Origin: Polyangium mundeleinium
Lineage (GTDB): Bacteria > Myxococcota_A > Polyangia > Polyangiales > Polyangiaceae
NCBI RefSeq assembly: GCF_028369105.1
Contig: NZ_JAQNDO010000001.1
Coordinates: forward strand, 868,001 to 932,000
Length of the DNA stretch: 64,000 nucleotides
Direction of reading: 5' to 3'
A program made the position numbers and the translations under genes. The first letter of the stretch is position 1; the number at the start of each line of letters is the position of its first letter. Below the pieces are notes generated by a model. It was not told the origin of the DNA. It saw only the letters and a program-made list of their open reading frames with translations, and did not search any database. Below are positions 38,550 through 46,080 of the stretch, piece by piece.

Positions 38550-38584
38550 GTAACATTAGGTAACATCCGACCACCTTGGGTAAC
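38550..38584 (+). promoter_or_regulatory. Phased GTAAC direct repeats at the regulator start
   Basis: GTAACAT occurs at 38550-38556 and 38560-38566, and GTAAC again at 38580-38584. Starts are 10 and 20 bases apart, so all three face the same side of the helix. This fits an operator for a winged or excisionase-type HTH protein such as the adjacent gene product. The third copy would fall inside the gene if translation began at the TTG at 38576. Confidence 0.55.
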
Positions 38585-39463
38585 GACGCACCTCCCCGAC
38601 GGCCTACAGCCTTGCTCACGACCCACGAGGTCGCGGCGCTGCTTCGCGTGCATCCGAAGCACGTCTACCGTCTCCTCAAACGAGGGCTTCCCGCGCGCCG
38701 CGTCGGCGACGAGTGGCGTTACGACGAGGCCGACGTGCTCGCATGGAGCCGGGGCGCGCCTGTCGCCGCGTCGGCGGAGGCGCCCGAGACCTCACCTCCG
38801 CCCCTGCTCGCGGCGAACGGAGATCTCGCGATCGAGGCCTTGTTCGACGAGGCCCGTGATCGAGCCGCCCCGCTCGTAGGCCTCATCCTCGCCGATCATG
38901 CGACCGGCCTCGTACGGCTGGAGCGTGGCGCCGTGCTCGGCGCGGGCTGCCACGGGGACCATGTTCCTGCGTCGCTCGGGGGGGAGAAGCTCGCATGGAT
39001 CCACCTCGCCGTCCGTGAGCTCGGGCTCGCGCATCGCAAGGGCCTGCGGTTGCGCAGGCTCTCCAGCATCGCGGGGCGCAGGCTCGCGTCGCGGCCGCGG
39101 ACCGCGGGCATTCGCCACCATATCGACGAGGCTTTGTCCCGCGAGGGGGTCGAGCCCGAGCGCGCCTATGCGCACGCCGAGGAATATCGCTCCCACAGGG
39201 ACGCGGTCATGGCCGTCGCACGTGGGGACGCCGAGGTCGCGCTCGCCTCCCGCGCGTGGGCCGCGCACGCCGGGCTCGGGTTCACGCCCGTCGTGACGGA
39301 GGCGTATGGCCTCGTGTTTCGCGCCGAGCACCTCGGCGACCCCCGCGTCCTCGCGCTCTGCGAGCTCGTCCAGAGCGGGAAATTCCGCGCGCGGCTCGCT
39401 TGCCACGCGGGGTACGACGCGACGAGCGCTGGGCATCTGCAGTTTGGAAGGAGTATCGCTTGA
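38576..39463 (+). CDS. HTH/periplasmic-binding-fold one-component regulator
   Basis: This protein of up to 295 aa has an excisionase/MerR-like HTH ('LLTTHEVAALLRVHPKHVYR', then 'GLPARRVGDEWRYDEADVLAW', residues about 13-58). A PBP-like domain of the kind found in molybdate-type regulators follows (about 95-290, 'VGLILADHATGLVRLERGAV', 'HVPASLGGEKLAWIHLAVRELG', quoted in parts, 'DAVMAVARGDAEVALASRAWAAHAGLGF' region, 'VTEAYGLVF'). Such proteins sense a small ligand directly. The start is uncertain: TTG at 38576 or TTG at 38612, neither with a clear ribosome site. It heads a seven-gene operon; its stop overlaps the start of the next gene. Confidence 0.85.
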   Translation: MGNDAPPRRPTALLTTHEVAALLRVHPKHVYRLLKRGLPARRVGDEWRYDEADVLAWSRGAPVAASAEAPETSPPPLLAANGDLAIEALFDEARDRAAPLVGLILADHATGLVRLERGAVLGAGCHGDHVPASLGGEKLAWIHLAVRELGLAHRKGLRLRRLSSIAGRRLASRPRTAGIRHHIDEALSREGVEPERAYAHAEEYRSHRDAVMAVARGDAEVALASRAWAAHAGLGFTPVVTEAYGLVFRAEHLGDPRVLALCELVQSGKFRARLACHAGYDATSAGHLQFGRSIA

Positions 39464-40659
39464 AATTGATCCGACAAACCATGATGTTGGGAGCGCTCGC
39501 GGCGCTCCTTTCCCCGCGCGCGGCGCTCGCCCTGGATTGCAGCGCTTTGCCAAACCCTGTCTACATCCAGAGCGGGGACACGCAGGAGCCGCTCCTCAAG
39601 GGGCTCGGCCAGAAGCTCCGCGCCTCGCAGACGACCCCGATGACGCTCATCTACCAGACGAGCGGCTCGTGCACGAACATCGAAGCGATGTACCAGGGCA
39701 CGAAGCTCGCGACGAATCCGCGTTACATCCCCTCGGCCGCCGAGGATCCGACGTGGGACCCGAGCAAGCCCGCGCCTCAGTGCACGATTGATCCGAACGG
39801 TGTCCCCCTCGACCTCGCCATCTCGGCGCTCTTCGTGAGCTCCTGCGATCCCTCGCCGCCGCCCGCCGGGATCGGCCTGTTCCAGGGGCCCGTGCAGCCG
39901 TATGTCTTCATCGTCCCGGAGGCGAGCTCGCAGCGCGCCATCACAGCGGAGGAGGCGTATTTCGTTTTCGGCTTCGGCGCGCAGGGGAAGGTCGAGCCCT
40001 GGACGGACGAGTCGCTCTATTTCATCCGCACGACGACAAAGAGCACGCTGCTCACGATGGCTGCGGCCATCGGCGTGCCAGGGGCGAAATGGAAAGGGGC
40101 GATGCTCGACAAATCCTCCGAGGTCTTGAACGGCGTCGCCACCTCGCCGAGCCCCGAGAAGACGATCGGCATCCTCGGCGCCGAGATTTACGACGGCAAC
40201 CGGGACAAGGTCGAAGCGCTCGCGTTCCAGGCGTTCAAGCAGAAACACGCCTATTACCCCGACTCCACGGCGACCTCCTTCGACAAACGCAACGTGCGGG
40301 ACGGTCATTACACGATCTGGTCCCCCACGGTGTATCTCGCGCACGTCGACGCGCAGGGGACCGTGACGAACGCGCGCGTTCGTTCCCTCGTCGACATGAT
40401 CCTCGCGAAGACCGTCACTCCCGCGCCGGATTTCGATCCGCTCGACATCGTCATCTCGAAGGGGCTCGTCCCCGATTGCGCAATGACGGTCACGCGGTCC
40501 TTCGAGGGCGGTGACCTCTCGCTCTATAGCCCGCCCGAGCCGTGTGGCTGCTTTTTCGAGAGCCGCGTGGGACAACCCAGCGCGACGTGCACGACATGCG
40601 GCGGGGATGGCGAATGTGGCGGTGGCAAGTGCCGGCACGGCTTCTGCGAGGCGAAATGA
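39460..40659 (+). CDS. Exported PstS-like substrate-binding protein with Cys-rich tail
   Basis: This 399-aa protein starts at a TTG that overlaps the preceding TGA (TTGA), with AAGGAG 7 bases before. It has a signal peptide ('MMLGALAALLSPRAALA') and a phosphate-binding-protein-like fold: 'YIQSGDTQEPLLKGLGQKL' and 'TLIYQTSGSCTNIEAMYQG' recall the PstS anion-binding loops. The last 45 residues are Cys-rich ('PCGCFFES', 'CTTCGGDGECGGGKCRHGFC'). No ABC permease or ATPase is nearby, so it may deliver ligand to the porin/TonB proteins encoded downstream or serve in sensing. Ligand unknown; an oxyanion is plausible by family. Confidence 0.85.
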   Translation: MKLIRQTMMLGALAALLSPRAALALDCSALPNPVYIQSGDTQEPLLKGLGQKLRASQTTPMTLIYQTSGSCTNIEAMYQGTKLATNPRYIPSAAEDPTWDPSKPAPQCTIDPNGVPLDLAISALFVSSCDPSPPPAGIGLFQGPVQPYVFIVPEASSQRAITAEEAYFVFGFGAQGKVEPWTDESLYFIRTTTKSTLLTMAAAIGVPGAKWKGAMLDKSSEVLNGVATSPSPEKTIGILGAEIYDGNRDKVEALAFQAFKQKHAYYPDSTATSFDKRNVRDGHYTIWSPTVYLAHVDAQGTVTNARVRSLVDMILAKTVTPAPDFDPLDIVISKGLVPDCAMTVTRSFEGGDLSLYSPPEPCGCFFESRVGQPSATCTTCGGDGECGGGKCRHGFCEAK

Positions 40660-40937
40660 ACACGCGATACTTCTTCAAGGGTCTTTTCGTCCTCGTCCTG
40701 CTCGCGAGCGCGTGCGGCGAGGAGAATCCGCCGGCAAACCCCTCGGGTAGCTCGTCGAGCAGCGGCGCGGGCGGCATGGGCGGAGCTGGCGGAGCCGGCG
40801 GGAGCGGGCCCGGATGTTTCTCCGACCCCACGAGCCACGTGGAGATCATCAACGCCTGCACCGACGCGGAGAAGGTGGACAAGGTCGTGAACCTGCCGCT
40901 CCTGAATGCCGATGGCTCGCTCCCACCGCTGCCCTGA
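40656..40937 (+). CDS. Small Gly/Ser-linker lipoprotein
   Basis: This 93-aa protein has a lipobox (LASAC, Cys20), a Ser/Gly linker ('SGSSSSSGAGGMGGAGGAGG') and a short C-terminal segment with two Cys ('GCFSDPTSHVEIINACTDAEKVDK'; quoted in part as 'HVEIINACTDAEKVDK'). The ATG overlaps the stop of the binding-protein gene by ATGA. No family recognised. Such lipoproteins in TonB-type operons often help the receptor or binding protein; here this is only inference. The next gene starts 32 bases inside it. Confidence 0.8.
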   Translation: MNTRYFFKGLFVLVLLASACGEENPPANPSGSSSSSGAGGMGGAGGAGGSGPGCFSDPTSHVEIINACTDAEKVDKVVNLPLLNADGSLPPLP

Positions 40938-42240
40938 CCGGGCATTTCGGCGGCTCGTCGTGCTCGCGAGCCTGCTCGCCGGGAGCGCGATCGGGTCTGC
41001 GCGGGCCGAGACCAAGCCCAAGCCACCCGAGCCCCCCGTGCGCCTCCGCCTCTCGGGCTATGTGCAGGCCGACGCTGTGGCGTATCGGCAATCGTCGCAA
41101 GACGAAATCAACCCGGCGACCGGCGCGCCGCTCAACGAGGATCGATTCACGATCACGCGGGCGCGCCTCCGCGCCGATGTGAGCGCGCACATCGTGAGCG
41201 GCGCGCTCGAGCTCGACGCAAACACCGTGGAGGGGCCCGCCGCGCGTGTCATCGAGGCCGAGGTCTCGGCGCGCTGGCAAGGCGCGAATGCCGAGGCGCC
41301 GCCCTACGTCATGGCCACGCTCGGCCTCTTCAAAATTCCTTTTGGCGTCGAAGGACCGGAGCGTGAGCGGAGCCGCCTCTTCCTCGAACGAACCACGACG
41401 AGCCGCGCGCTGTTTCCGGGCAACTATGACCTCGGCCTGCGCCTCTCCGGCGGGTATCGTGTCCTCCGGTATGCCGTGGCCCTCATGAACGGCGAGCCGG
41501 TCGGGCAGGTGTTTTTCCCGGCGCGGGATCCGAACGGAGGCAAGGACGTCCTCGGTCGCATCGGCGTCGATACGAGGCCGCTCGCGAGGCTGCGCGTGCA
41601 GGGCGGGTTTTCCGCCCTTTCCGGCACGGGGCTACACCGGGGCACGCCGAGCACGAAGGACGTACTCGTGTGGCGCGACGAGAACGAGAATGGCCTTGTG
41701 GAGGGGACCGAGATCCGCGCGATTCCGGGGACCGCGGCCACGCCGTCCGAGAACTTTGACCGCTTCGCGCTCGGCGCCGACCTGCGCGTCACGGCGAAGC
41801 TGCCCGTCGTCGGCGAATCGTGCCTCTTCGGAGAAATCGTGCGCGCGCAAAACATCGATCGTGGCGTCGAGCCTGCCGACCCGATCGGCGCAGGCCGTGA
41901 TCTCCGAGAACTCGGCTTTCACGTCGGAATCACCCAGGAGCTCAGCCGATATGTGATGATTGGCGTGCGTTACGATCGGTACAACCCCGACCAGGACGCG
42001 AGCGAGCAACGCGGCAAGGACCTCGTGCCCCGCGACAGCACGTACTCCACCGTCTCCATCGCCGCTGCGCTCCGGTACACGCCCCCAACGCGGACGTTCG
42101 CCCGTGACAACCCCTTTCCCGCCCTGCGCGTCGTCCTTGAATACGATCACCGGAACAACGCGCTCGGCCGCACCGCGGGCGGTCTGCCGACCACGCTCGG
42201 GGACGACTCGTTCGCGATTCGCGGGGAGGTGTCGTTTTGA
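40906..42240 (+). CDS. Outer-membrane porin of the OprO/OprP type
   Basis: This 444-aa protein has a signal peptide ('LVVLASLLAGSAIGSARA') and a beta-barrel pattern. Strand-like segments include 'RLRLSGYVQADAVAYRQSSQ', 'FTITRARLRADVSAHIVSGA', 'MATLGLFKIPFGVEGPERER' and 'VMIGVRYDRYNPD', ending in the terminal Phe (VSF) typical of outer-membrane proteins. 'GLFKIPFG' and 'RARL' are characteristic of the phosphate/polyphosphate-selective porins O and P. The gene starts at ATG 40906 (or 40912), overlapping the lipoprotein gene by 32 bases, and its stop overlaps the next start by TTGA. It probably lets anions cross the outer membrane. Confidence 0.85.
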   Translation: MPMARSHRCPDRAFRRLVVLASLLAGSAIGSARAETKPKPPEPPVRLRLSGYVQADAVAYRQSSQDEINPATGAPLNEDRFTITRARLRADVSAHIVSGALELDANTVEGPAARVIEAEVSARWQGANAEAPPYVMATLGLFKIPFGVEGPERERSRLFLERTTTSRALFPGNYDLGLRLSGGYRVLRYAVALMNGEPVGQVFFPARDPNGGKDVLGRIGVDTRPLARLRVQGGFSALSGTGLHRGTPSTKDVLVWRDENENGLVEGTEIRAIPGTAATPSENFDRFALGADLRVTAKLPVVGESCLFGEIVRAQNIDRGVEPADPIGAGRDLRELGFHVGITQELSRYVMIGVRYDRYNPDQDASEQRGKDLVPRDSTYSTVSIAAALRYTPPTRTFARDNPFPALRVVLEYDHRNNALGRTAGGLPTTLGDDSFAIRGEVSF

Positions 42241-43124
42241 GGCGGCCTGCGCTCTTGCTTATGTTTTCGGTATTCACCGGCTGCGGCGGCGTATCGTCCG
42301 ATCCGGGGCTCTTTGCGGACATGCGTGTCGCGCCCGGCGTGTACGTGAAGGGGCCGATGCCGCAGGAGAATGGCGGGCCCGGCGTCGTCGCCGTGGACCT
42401 CGGCACGAATCGCGTGCGAACGGGGCAGATCGACAAACCCATGCGGGGGGCCCTCGCGCCGGATGCGACCGCGGTCGCGCTCGGCCTCTCCGGGGATGCA
42501 GGATACTGGATCGTCCCTGCGGGCCTGCCCGACGTGCAATCGCCGGCATTTCCCACCTTCGACGTATCGCTTTCGTTTTCGCCCGACATGCGCGCGGGGT
42601 CGTACGAGCTCCTCGTGCACGCCGTCGATGTGGATGGGCATTTCGGCACCACGAGCCGTCATGCGCTCGAGGCCACGACCATCACCGCGCCCGAGGGAAA
42701 CCTCGTCGTCTCGCTTCGCTGGGATCGCGAGGCCGACCTCGACCTGCACGTCGTCGATCCGCGCGGGGTCGAGATCTACAAGCGCAACATTAATTCGTAC
42801 GAGTTGCCGCCGTCCGGGCAGCCAGTGAATCCCACGGCGTGGCAGTCCGGCGCGCTCCTCGATTTCGACTCCAATGCGGGATGCGTCATCGACGGCAAGC
42901 GCATGGAAAACGTCATCTGGAAGAACGACCCGCCGCCCGGCCATTACATCGTCCGTGTCGATACGTTTTCCCTTTGCGGCGAGGGCTTCGCGAACTGGTC
43001 GGTGGACGTGCTCCGGAGCGGCGTCTCCCTGGCGCGGTCCGCGGGACAGGGCGGGCCCACGGACGAGGCGATGCCGCACGACAGGGGCGCCGGCGTCCTC
43101 GCGGTGGAGTTCGATCTTCCGTGA
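42237..43124 (+). CDS. DUF2135-like lipoprotein
   Basis: This 295-aa protein starts at TTG 42237 (TTGA overlap, GGGGAGG 8 bases ahead). It has a lipobox (SVFTGC, Cys16), an N-terminal domain of unknown type and a C-terminal beta domain (about residues 155-290). That domain carries 'VVSLRWDREADLDLHVVDPRG' (quoted as 'LRWDREADLDLHVVDPRG'), 'LLDFDSNAGC' and 'PPGHYIVRVDTFS', as in YfaP/DUF2135 domains that bind Ca2+ or other ligands via the W-D-x-D-x-D-L-H motif. It sits between porin and receptor genes and is probably a surface or periplasmic partner of them. Confidence 0.82.
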   Translation: MRRPALLLMFSVFTGCGGVSSDPGLFADMRVAPGVYVKGPMPQENGGPGVVAVDLGTNRVRTGQIDKPMRGALAPDATAVALGLSGDAGYWIVPAGLPDVQSPAFPTFDVSLSFSPDMRAGSYELLVHAVDVDGHFGTTSRHALEATTITAPEGNLVVSLRWDREADLDLHVVDPRGVEIYKRNINSYELPPSGQPVNPTAWQSGALLDFDSNAGCVIDGKRMENVIWKNDPPPGHYIVRVDTFSLCGEGFANWSVDVLRSGVSLARSAGQGGPTDEAMPHDRGAGVLAVEFDLP

Positions 43125-45178
43125 GGGGCCGCGCGGTGTGTATGGCCGTGGTGCTGGCCGCGTACTCGTTTTCCACGGTGGCCCATTCCGACGAACCACG
43201 ACCCGCGGAGGTGACCGTCCGCGCGGCGCCACGCAAGCGTGATCCGGGGCGTGCGACCGTTCGCGCCGACGAGGCCCGGCGCGTGGCAGGGACACGGGAC
43301 GATGCGCTTCGAATCGTGGAGAGCCTGCCGGGCGTCGCGCGGGGCGGGTTTTTCGGGGGAGGGCTCGTTCTTTGGGGCGCCGCGCCGGGCGACAGCCGTG
43401 TCACCGTGGACGGCGTCGAGATTCCGGTACTTTATCACGGAAATGGCCTTCGTGGTGTGCTTCCCTCGGGCCTCGTGCAGGCGATCGACCTCGCGCCCGG
43501 CGCGTATGGCGCCGAATACGGCCGCGCGCTCGGCGGCCTCGTCCGCGTGACCACGCGAGAGCTCCCGGCAAAGGGCATTCACGGATCGATCGGCGCAGAT
43601 TTCCTCGATGCCGCGGGCATGGTGAGCGCTGCCGTGGGGGATCGCGTGCGCGTCGCAGCCGCGGCCCGCGCGAGCCATTTCGATCGGCTCGTCGCCGCCG
43701 TGGCCCCGCCGAGCGTCCTCGACGTCGTGCCCATTCCGCGGTATCACGATTATCAGCTCAAGGTCTCCCTCGCGCTCCGGGAGGACGAGGCGATCTCGGC
43801 GGTGCTCCTCGGTGCGGGGGACGCGCTCACGCGCACGCAGCCATCGTCCGACCCCGCGAACACGCGTGTCGAATCGACCGAGAGCTCGTTTCAAAGATTT
43901 TATTTGCGTTATACGCGCGCCCTGCCCGACGGCGCGAACGTCGCCATCGTTCCGTTTTTCGGGCGGGATCGTGATCGGCGGGATGCCTCGTTCGGCGGGG
44001 TGCCGCAGGCGCGGGACACGCTCACGTGGCGGTATGGGCTGCGTGCCTCGTATCGCGCGCCGCTCACGCGCGACATCGTCGTGACGGCCGGCGTGGATGC
44101 CCTCGCGTCCCGCGCGAGCTTGTTCCGCCAGGGTTCGCTCACGTTGCCTCCGAGGGAAGGGGATCTTTACGTCTTTGGCCAGCCCCCAGGAAGCGACGTC
44201 AATGCGGACGAGTGGACTACGAACATCGTCGACGTCGGCCCCTTCCTCGTCTCGGAGTTGCGGCTCGGCCCCTTTCTCGTCACGCCGGGGCTGCGCGCCG
44301 ACCTGTTTCTGGTGGAGGGATCCCGAAGCACGCCGCGCGTGGGACAAACTCCCGGCATCGGCTCGTCCCGGCTCTTGCCAGCGCTGGATCCACGGCTCTC
44401 GGTGAGCGTTTCCCCCGTGGACCATGTGACGATCTCCGCGAGCGGCGGCCTCTACCACCAGCCGCCGTCGGCGGAGGATCTCGGACCGGTGTTCGGCGCG
44501 CCAAACCTTATGCTCTCCCGCGCGGCGCACGCGAGCGCAGGCGCGTCCGTGCGCTTGCCCGCGGGCCTCGACGTTGAAGTGACCGGTTTTTTCGTGGCGC
44601 TCGACGACCTCGTGGTCCGCAGCCGGCTCCCCACCCCGAAGCTCGCTGCCGCCCTCACGCAGGAAGGCGAGGGCGAGAGTTTCGGCGTGCAGGTCCTCGC
44701 GCGAAGGCAGCTCTGCAATGGGCTTTACGGCTGGATCGCCTACACCGCGAGCCGTAGCGAACGGCGTTATGTGGAGGATCCGTCGACGCGGCTTTTTGAT
44801 CACGATCAGACGCACGTGCTCACAGCGATGGCCGGCTACGAATGGCGTGGATGGAATTTCGGCGTTCGGTTCCGTCACGCCACGGGCGCGCCGCGCACGC
44901 CTGTCGTGGGCTCTTTTTATGATACGACGGCCGGCCGTTTCCAGCCGATCTTCGGCGCGCCAAATGGAACACGCCTCCCGAGCTTCCAGGCCCTCGACCT
45001 CCGCGTGCAGAAGGCGATTTCCGTGCGCAGCGCCTCGGTGGTCCTTTCGCTCGACGTCACGAACGCGACGAACCAGGACAACCCCGAGGAGTTCGTTTAC
45101 AACTACGATTTCAGCCGCAAGAGCTTCATTTCAGGGTTGCCGGTGCTGGCCATTCTGGGTGCGAGGGTCGAGCTGTGA
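43121..45178 (+). CDS. Short TonB-dependent receptor-like outer-membrane protein
   Basis: This 685-aa protein starts at GTG 43121 (GTGA overlap; ATG 43142 is an alternative) and has a signal peptide. The plug domain follows ('LRIVESLPGVARGGFFGGGL' and 'GDSRVTVDGVEIPVLYHGNG', 'YGAEYGRALGGLVRVTTREL'), then a beta-barrel of about 500 residues ending near 'LPVLAILGARVEL'. The plug matches TonB receptors, but the chain is shorter than most (700-1000 aa) and no clear TonB box is visible at the N terminus. It is likely to take up a scarce ligand together with the porin and lipoproteins of the operon. Confidence 0.88.
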   Translation: MRGRAVCMAVVLAAYSFSTVAHSDEPRPAEVTVRAAPRKRDPGRATVRADEARRVAGTRDDALRIVESLPGVARGGFFGGGLVLWGAAPGDSRVTVDGVEIPVLYHGNGLRGVLPSGLVQAIDLAPGAYGAEYGRALGGLVRVTTRELPAKGIHGSIGADFLDAAGMVSAAVGDRVRVAAAARASHFDRLVAAVAPPSVLDVVPIPRYHDYQLKVSLALREDEAISAVLLGAGDALTRTQPSSDPANTRVESTESSFQRFYLRYTRALPDGANVAIVPFFGRDRDRRDASFGGVPQARDTLTWRYGLRASYRAPLTRDIVVTAGVDALASRASLFRQGSLTLPPREGDLYVFGQPPGSDVNADEWTTNIVDVGPFLVSELRLGPFLVTPGLRADLFLVEGSRSTPRVGQTPGIGSSRLLPALDPRLSVSVSPVDHVTISASGGLYHQPPSAEDLGPVFGAPNLMLSRAAHASAGASVRLPAGLDVEVTGFFVALDDLVVRSRLPTPKLAAALTQEGEGESFGVQVLARRQLCNGLYGWIAYTASRSERRYVEDPSTRLFDHDQTHVLTAMAGYEWRGWNFGVRFRHATGAPRTPVVGSFYDTTAGRFQPIFGAPNGTRLPSFQALDLRVQKAISVRSASVVLSLDVTNATNQDNPEEFVYNYDFSRKSFISGLPVLAILGARVEL

Positions 45179-46080
45179 AGGGCAGCATTTCGTGGGCAAC
45201 GATGTTCCTCGTCGTGGCGGGTTGCCTCCCTGCCGAGGCCGAGCGGGAGTCGCTCGTGACGGGCCCGCGTATCCTCGCGGTGCGCAGCGAGCCGCCCGAA
45301 TCGAAGCCCGGTGCGTCCGTCGTATACAAGGCGCTTGTGGTGACACCGGACGGTGAACTCCAGGGCACCGCCGTGCGCTGGGCCTTTTGCGCGGCGCCGA
45401 AGCCGTTCACGGAAAACAGCCCTATCAGCGCCGCGTGTCTCGAAGGCGCCGTGCGGCCCATCGTGGGCACTACCGTGAGCGTGACAGCGCCGACGCCGAC
45501 CGATACCTGTTCGCTCTTCGGCCCCGAGACGCCCCCCGGTGATTTCCGCCCGAGGGACCCAGATGGGACAGGCGGGTTTTACCAGCCAGTCCGCGTGGAA
45601 GCCACAGGGCAGACCGCGTTCGTCCTGGAGCGGATCACGTGCAACTTGCCGAATGCGCCCCTCGACGTCGCAGTGGAGTTCGCAGAGCGGCGCGCCCTAA
45701 ATCGAAACCCGACGCTCGTCCCGCTGCGTGCGTTCGTGAACGGCGCGCCCGCGTCGCTCGACGCCTTGCCCGCGGGCGGAGACGTGCGATTCGAGGTCGG
45801 CTGGAGCGCCTATGACGCCGAGGCGTACCCTGCGTTCGATCCAAGAAAGCAGGCGCTTGTGGACCAACGCGAGGCGTTGCGGGTCTCCTGGTATGCGACC
45901 GCCGGGGCCTTCGAGAGCGACGTGACGGGGCGGGCGAGCGAGGACCTGGCGCCGACGGTGTCGAACGGATGGCGCGCGCCCGACGAGCCTTCGCGGGTGT
46001 TCGTGTGGCTCGTGTTGCGGGATGGGCGTGGCGGGACCGATTTCGCGAGGTATACCCTCGACGTGAAGTCTCCGCCTTAG
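45175..46080 (+). CDS. Lipoprotein of the porin/TonB operon, unknown family
   Basis: This 301-aa protein starts at GTG 45175 overlapping the receptor stop (GTGA). It has a lipobox (VVAGC, Cys17) and beta-rich repeats of an Ig-like kind ('SKPGASVVYKALVVTPDGEL', 'DALPAGGDVRFEVGWSAYDA', 'LVLRDGRGGTDFARYTLDV') with four or five Cys. It is the last gene of the operon. It may cap the receptor on the cell surface, as SusD- or HmuY-like partners do, but no homology to those is visible. It converges on the unknown gene at 46090 with 9 bases between. Confidence 0.78.
   Translation: MKGSISWATMFLVVAGCLPAEAERESLVTGPRILAVRSEPPESKPGASVVYKALVVTPDGELQGTAVRWAFCAAPKPFTENSPISAACLEGAVRPIVGTTVSVTAPTPTDTCSLFGPETPPGDFRPRDPDGTGGFYQPVRVEATGQTAFVLERITCNLPNAPLDVAVEFAERRALNRNPTLVPLRAFVNGAPASLDALPAGGDVRFEVGWSAYDAEAYPAFDPRKQALVDQREALRVSWYATAGAFESDVTGRASEDLAPTVSNGWRAPDEPSRVFVWLVLRDGRGGTDFARYTLDVKSPP

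Follow-up and report, generated by a model that had tools for sequence, protein, structure and literature searches.

Seven overlapping genes on the + strand at 38576-46080 of the window (the whole stretch of 64,000 nucleotides analysed here, positions 868001-932000 of the 13.25 Mb genome of Polyangium mundeleinium) form an operon that probably acquires molybdate and/or tungstate at the outer membrane, feeding a ModABC transporter encoded elsewhere and borrowing its TonB energy. Capture of an oxyanion at the outer membrane, which a sequence-only reading had proposed, is well supported by gene context, and molybdate or tungstate now stands ahead of phosphate for the window's copy. The features are as follows.

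38550..38566, + strand: 17-base direct repeat GTAACATTAGGTAACAT, putative operator of the regulator (exact match here)
38576..39463, + strand: regulator P0001, HTH_17 and PBP_like domains in a TaoR-type build (both above the Pfam cut-off; relatives adjoin class C operons)
39460..40659, + strand: binding protein P0002, PstS fold, class C anion site and Cys-rich tail (profile, motifs and model)
40656..40937, + strand: small lipoprotein P0003, possible anchor of P0002 (lipobox by eye; pairing with P0002 relatives)
40906..42240, + strand: porin P0004, distant Porin_O_P family (family matches and model; P0004 alone has no Pfam match)
42237..43124, + strand: lipoprotein P0005
43121..45178, + strand: TonB-dependent receptor P0006, short form (Plug domain)
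45175..46080, + strand: lipoprotein P0007

All seven genes are present and every proposed junction is borne out: TTGA at 39460, ATGA at 40656, TTGA at 42237, GTGA at 43121 and 45175, and a 32-base overlap of P0003 and P0004 (40906-40937). P0001 (HTH_17, PBP_like) and P0006 (Plug) match Pfam models above the cut-off, the other five proteins match none above it, and none of the seven matches the SusD family in Pfam. The HTH/PBP build proposed for the regulator stands, but its start is more likely TTG 38612 than 38576, given the gene caller's choice in the window and in relatives and the conserved repeat just before it. An additional GTAAC lies after the repeat, at 38580-38584.

Recurrence of the gene order in Myxococcota

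Relatives of P0002 are present in 27 of 59 related genomes, and a family profile search places them in at least 100 of 371 Myxococcota genomes. A named species collection yielded 130 confirmed stretches with such relatives; the titles of the best 80 of these 130 name Myxococcota groups or unplaced bins given as Deltaproteobacteria, Proteobacteria or 'bacterium', and because the scan used two short peptide patterns, absence elsewhere does not follow. We compared 220 loci, among them 98 further regions taken from among the matches listed by the profile search rather than from every match. These gave 216 binding proteins of at least 300 residues and, after removal of near-copies (95% identity), 160; shorter binding proteins and four loci with no gene-called binding protein (L034, L075, L135 and L209) were left out.

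A porin gene lies downstream on the same strand within 11 kb in 103 of the 160 non-redundant relatives. The longer order of binding protein, small lipoprotein, porin, lipoprotein, receptor and lipoprotein also recurs, which together with the porin count points to more than chance. Conservation of the gene order had been set beforehand as a point on which the proposal would stand or fall, and the order does recur in Myxococcota.

The operon is whole in the window, L073 and L080. In Polyangium fumosum (L039/L084) the binding protein and the receptor are each split into two frames, and Polyangium sp. y55x31 (L034/L075) lacks the small lipoprotein, porin and lipoprotein that elsewhere separate the binding protein from the receptor; either case may reflect decay, a deletion or an assembly error.

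The binding protein also has solo copies, accompanied by a small lipoprotein and in many cases close to a Ser/Thr-kinase-like gene; one of them is at 7.76 Mb of this genome. Stand-alone pairs of the SGT type lie by Ser/Thr-kinase-like and PEGA/TPR-like genes (by eye) in L032 (7752000-7768000), L042, L059, L061-L063, L133 and L148, and are possibly surface phosphate sensors.

Anion-site classes and neighbouring transporter genes

The model of P0002 (pLDDT 94) has phosphate-binding or phosphate-type proteins as its top 21 PDB matches, and ModA structures begin at rank 22, so the ligand cannot be told from the fold. Among PDB sequences the family profile matches PstS (best E 5.3e-05); P0002 itself scores 12.9 bits against the curated PstS model, below the cut-off of 206.6, and has no match to the TIGR01256 modA model at E up to 1. 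The earlier description of P0002 as PstS-like thus stands for the fold, in both model and family profile, and fails at the curated cut-off. Its site comprises GDTQ at 39-42, A123, R190 and K194-S195-T196, where A123 takes the place of the site Asp of PstS in a column mapped by HMMER alignment to 4exl. As regards an anion site, the model has a PstS-like fold and the Arg of the site is invariant, but the site departs from PstS at three other positions. Because a global hhalign of the family against two PstS proteins aligned poorly, the site was mapped from local profile alignments and motif likeness. The site Asp of PstS, which we take to be Asp56 of E. coli, accepts the phosphate proton and keeps sulfate out; one PDB match of the P0002 model, 1ixi, has a title that concerns Asp56.

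Lipoproteins of the P0003 type are paired with P0002 relatives and, in L065, fused to the binding protein, which suggests that P0003 anchors P0002. The P0003 profile drifted onto P0002 and was left out of counts. In L203 (6593-8284), the N terminus of the class C binding protein is extended by a long lipoprotein-like stretch rich in Ala and Asp, and gene calling gave no separate small lipoprotein.

Relatives were classed by two anion-site motifs, SGT defining class A, GGSA class B and [GAD]DTQ class C, to which the window belongs (GDTQ). Members with a porin downstream number 25 in class A, 36 in class B, 34 in class C and eight unclassed. A third site column ('.DV'), which played no part in the classing, holds Asp in 25 of 25 class A, 0 of 36 class B and 0 of 34 class C operon members. 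The class A figure rests on the aligned column, in which the script counted 21 as SD and the other four read TDV, LDV, ADV and ADV in printed rows; a check of raw strings found the Asp segment in 12 of the 25, and L101 reads ISIVF there. A FastTree tree of 83 receptor rows, with the binding protein left out, needs nine class changes, whereas shuffled labels need 41.8. On this tree the classes do not form single clades (five changes for C, four for B and five for A), and it carries program warnings of long branches and uneven composition.

Neighbouring genes, found by tblastn with reference genes over the 220 loci and counted on the 160, differ between the classes. ModA or ModB lies near four of 39 class C members and none of 121 others (Fisher p 0.003), or three of 34 compared with none of 69 when only full operons are taken (Fisher p 0.034). 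P0001-like regulators lie near 11 of 39 class C members and none of the 121 others (p 5e-8), five of the 11 being weak (56-62 bits). Class B adjoins Sbp, CysT or CysW in seven of 40 members, compared with none of 120 others (p 4e-5), and TauD- or YeeE-like genes in ten of 40, compared with one of 120. Pst or Pit genes occur near two of 57 class A members, one of them a solo copy, and near none of 103 others, which is not significant (p 0.13). In reading these statistics, note that related loci are not independent, that flank lengths differ and that the first Mod and sulfate neighbours were already known when the classes were defined. The loci fetched after classing are a fair if small test of the classes: sulfate genes appear in six, all class B (L157, L158, L174, L197, L236 and L245), and Mod genes in L203, which is class C.

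Several of these neighbours are confirmed by NCBIfam models. ModA, ModB and ModC score above cut-off in L104; ModA and ModB do so in L077 and L209, with ModC below, and ModA in L203. Sbp is above cut-off in L157, L245 and L056, the last also with CysW above and CysA below, and PstS is above it in L119 and L201, with PhoB below in L119. CysT, the TauD-, YeeE- and TauE-like genes and the other Pst, Pho and Pit genes of L119/L043 were named by eye. In L203 and L209, from two genomes of one genus, the regulator, ModA, ModB, ModC, binding protein, porin, lipoprotein, receptor and lipoprotein follow each other on one strand; the binding protein of L209 was placed by profile search and assigned to no class, and the regulators of both loci seem by eye to have a different kind of HTH from P0001. 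Two loci sit less well with molybdate: in L077 the binding protein is fused and tail-less, and ModABC comes after it with no porin or receptor, and tblastn found solely a ModA-like gene at 36% identity in L085.

The sequence-only reading had stressed the lack of an inner-membrane transporter, an emphasis that we abandon, since relatives' operons adjoin ModABC, Sbp-CysTW or Pst genes and the window's genome encodes ModB at 3.65 Mb (217 bits, cut-off 182.6), followed by a ModC-like gene (by eye). The part truly absent from the window's type is an ExbB-ExbD-TonB module that sister types carry.

The regulator points the same way as the neighbours. P0001 matches PF12728 at 43.7 bits and PF12727 at 100.8 bits (cut-off 27 for each), and this combination of HTH_17 and a PBP-like domain in one protein is that of the TaoR/TupR type; excerpts of one paper describe TaoR as an HTH and PBP-like protein that regulates tungsten aldehyde oxidoreductase (PMC11980592). 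The longest NCBIfam match of P0001 (81 bits, cut-off 534) is to the final, PBP portion of a protein of molybdopterin biosynthesis. A stronger PBP_like match (155.7 bits) lies at 11745541-11746074 of the genome contig, in a 644-residue open frame that is perhaps a MoeA-type fusion.

The repeat GTAACATTAGGTAACAT occurs exactly once in the genome, with one more site at up to three mismatches compared with two for a backwards control. At zero to two mismatches it lies upstream of six of 39 non-redundant class C members, all with a P0001-like regulator, and of none of 121 others; the single sites with three mismatches in classes A and B are near chance level. It is exact before the regulator in other Polyangium loci and has one or two mismatches before related regulators in L076/L112/L169, L074 (Minicystis) and L104. 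The L104 copy separates regulator-ModABC from the outer-membrane operon, a position that ties the window's operon to a regulator-ModABC locus. The repeat was looked for and not found before modABC of the window's genome, which counts against molybdate.

The case for molybdate or tungstate is drawn from the ModA/ModB genes and P0001-like regulators near class C and near none of the 121 others, the TaoR-like build and molybdopterin-protein match of P0001, the repeat in L104, the Asp that no class C operon member has and the ModB gene of this genome. That the operon captures phosphate instead would fit the phosphate-binding proteins that best match the P0002 model, the match of the family profile to PstS sequences, the kinship with Porin_O_P and the genes beside sister class A: L119/L043 has PhoB-like, PhoR, PstB, PhoU, PstS, PstC and PstA genes before the operon and DUF47 and Pit after it, and L201 has upstream PstS and PhoR-like genes that the Pst count missed. 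However, the Asp common to all class A operon members is absent in 34 of 34 class C members, SGT is replaced by KST, no Pst or Pit gene was found near the 39 class C members, and the regulator is of the molybdate/tungstate type. Phosphate was thus ranked second as ligand of the window's copy, whose site residues and neighbours are those of another class, and we consider it distinctly unlikely.

PhoB-like regulators were dropped as a sign of phosphate, as they lie near classes A, B and C alike; at 120 bits or more they occur near class A in L103, L114, L119, L149, L190, L201 and L244, near class C in L037, L040, L183, L185 and L219, and near class B in L154. Class C operons in L090, L097, L105 and L106 adjoin a divergent heme-biosynthesis-like cluster (HemE-, HemH- and HemG-like, by eye).

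Outer-membrane proteins and their energy supply

The proposed likeness of P0004 to OprO/P porins holds at the family level only. P0004 itself has no Pfam match to Porin_O_P, which ten of 21 family members match at E up to 0.1 (best E 4.6e-05), and its family profile did not find OprO/OprP among PDB sequences. Its model is a porin (pLDDT 82), nearest to OmpT, OmpM1 and DcaP, with Omp32 at rank 9 and OprO at rank 22. The DUF2135 likeness proposed for the lipoprotein P0005 is weak, with one of 20 family members matching at E 0.038. The Plug domain of P0006, which had been called a TonB-type receptor, lies narrowly above the Pfam cut-off (25.2 bits compared with 23.9). Plug is matched in all 16 aligned members of the receptor family; 12 of the 16 match the receptor beta-barrel (PF00593), P0006 not being among the matches listed. 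TonB_C and CarboxypepD_reg domains are found in 12 and ten of the 16 aligned receptors, respectively, and P0006 is without both. In these 12 receptors, among them those of L037, L043 and L064, the TonB C-terminal-type domain lies at the N-terminal end of the receptor itself.

Many relatives have ExbB-, ExbD- and TonB-like genes between the fifth and sixth genes of the operon. Among loci with more than 6.5 kb downstream, ExbB or ExbD occurs in 20 of 22 class A and 26 of 27 class B operons, none of 30 class C operons and two of six unclassed ones. The contrast between class C and the 46 of 49 class A and B operons could mean that the class C receptor is not energised and that a once TonB-powered operon survives there as a remnant, in decay or passive, for which the split genes of Polyangium fumosum and the three missing middle genes of Polyangium sp. 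y55x31 also speak. But the operon is whole in the window, L073 and L080, a TonB-box-like stretch before the plug of P0006 is kept (by eye), and the genome has 12 ExbD matches elsewhere, 11 of them above cut-off and none near the operon; we hold a remnant to be highly improbable.

With 685 residues, a full receptor looks oversized for a small ion, and TonB receptors mostly take large or chelated ligands. P0006 might accordingly import a molybdate or tungstate complex, such as a molybdophore-like chelate, from which P0002 takes the released anion; in part of a review, metallophores are said to be possible carriers of metals across rhizobial outer membranes (PMC4965479). No chelator biosynthesis gene was recognised by eye among the genes listed near the window, however, and receptors of this one family also occur in the classes linked with phosphate and sulfate genes, so that we regard chelate import as unlikely.

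For molybdate and tungstate acquisition, we infer the following sequence of events. P0001 would read the cytoplasmic anion level and control the operon at the GTAACAT repeat. P0006, with the porin P0004 and the lipoproteins P0005 and P0007, would admit molybdate or tungstate, free or complexed, and P0002, held by the lipoprotein P0003, would bind the admitted anion. ModABC elsewhere in the genome would complete uptake, and TonB energy would be borrowed from another ExbBD-TonB set. The window's operon would then belong, as one branch, to a Myxococcota family with further branches that take phosphate and sulfur oxyanions and have their own ExbB-ExbD-TonB. The chances are about even that such a family of TonB-powered outer-membrane uptake systems exists in full, with phosphate, sulfate or other sulfur oxyanions, and molybdate or tungstate as small inorganic ligands, the anion site of one tethered PstS-fold binding protein rewritten for each ligand together with the receptor, and active capture or import as its function.

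Relation to described systems

The arrangement had been put forward as one not known to be described, and searches of open-access papers, which leave out most subscription papers, gave no account of the operon. TaoR/TupR-type HTH-PBP regulators reportedly accompany ModABC molybdate transport (Rajeev et al. 2019, as cited in PMC10102598). The regulator build is shared with the window, and ModABC genes adjoin the operon in L104, L203 and L209; those regulators control inner-membrane transport or tungsten enzymes, whereas the window's type adds an outer-membrane operon of receptor and porin.

Pseudomonas OprO/OprP porins are stand-alone channels. They share a distant Pfam family with ten of the 21 P0004 family members, but P0004 misses the Pfam model and the family profile matched no OprO/P sequence in the PDB.

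The nearest described ideas, judged from portions of the respective papers, are PusCD of Flavobacterium and ElpS/Cc0171 of Caulobacter. PusCD, which resembles the class A branch, is a phosphate-regulated outer-membrane receptor system that has a partner at the cell surface, but as portrayed in those portions the partner is of the SusD type, there is no PstS-fold binding protein and the phylum is another (PMC8812569). ElpS is an outer-membrane lipoprotein of phosphate starvation encoded beside the TonB receptor Cc0171; the pair, likened here by description, adjoins type II secretion genes, and the same portions describe no porin, ExbBD or regulator with it (PMC2996285). By term search, a 2024 review of TonB-dependent substrates contains no word beginning with molybd-, sulfate, oxyanion or tungst-; of its three uses of phosphate, one concerns an unrelated vitamin-like cofactor (PMC11658791).

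The proposal bears on a general view of oxyanion uptake. The usual view is that phosphate, sulfate and molybdate diffuse through porins in the outer membrane and that selectivity is confined to the inner membrane. If the proposal is true, ions thought to enter by diffusion alone would be actively captured or imported, and a receptor, a porin and a binding protein whose site matches the neighbouring transporter would move selectivity outward. The classes would also constitute a natural set of variants with changed oxyanion specificity in one fold, each making a testable binding prediction.

A further site type, reading TTDVKP and PASSTQ and lacking ExbBD, is found in L132 (1898-3634), L137 and L222. 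YeeE/YedE- and TauE-like genes lie upstream of it in L132, which suggests that its ligand is perhaps another sulfur anion.
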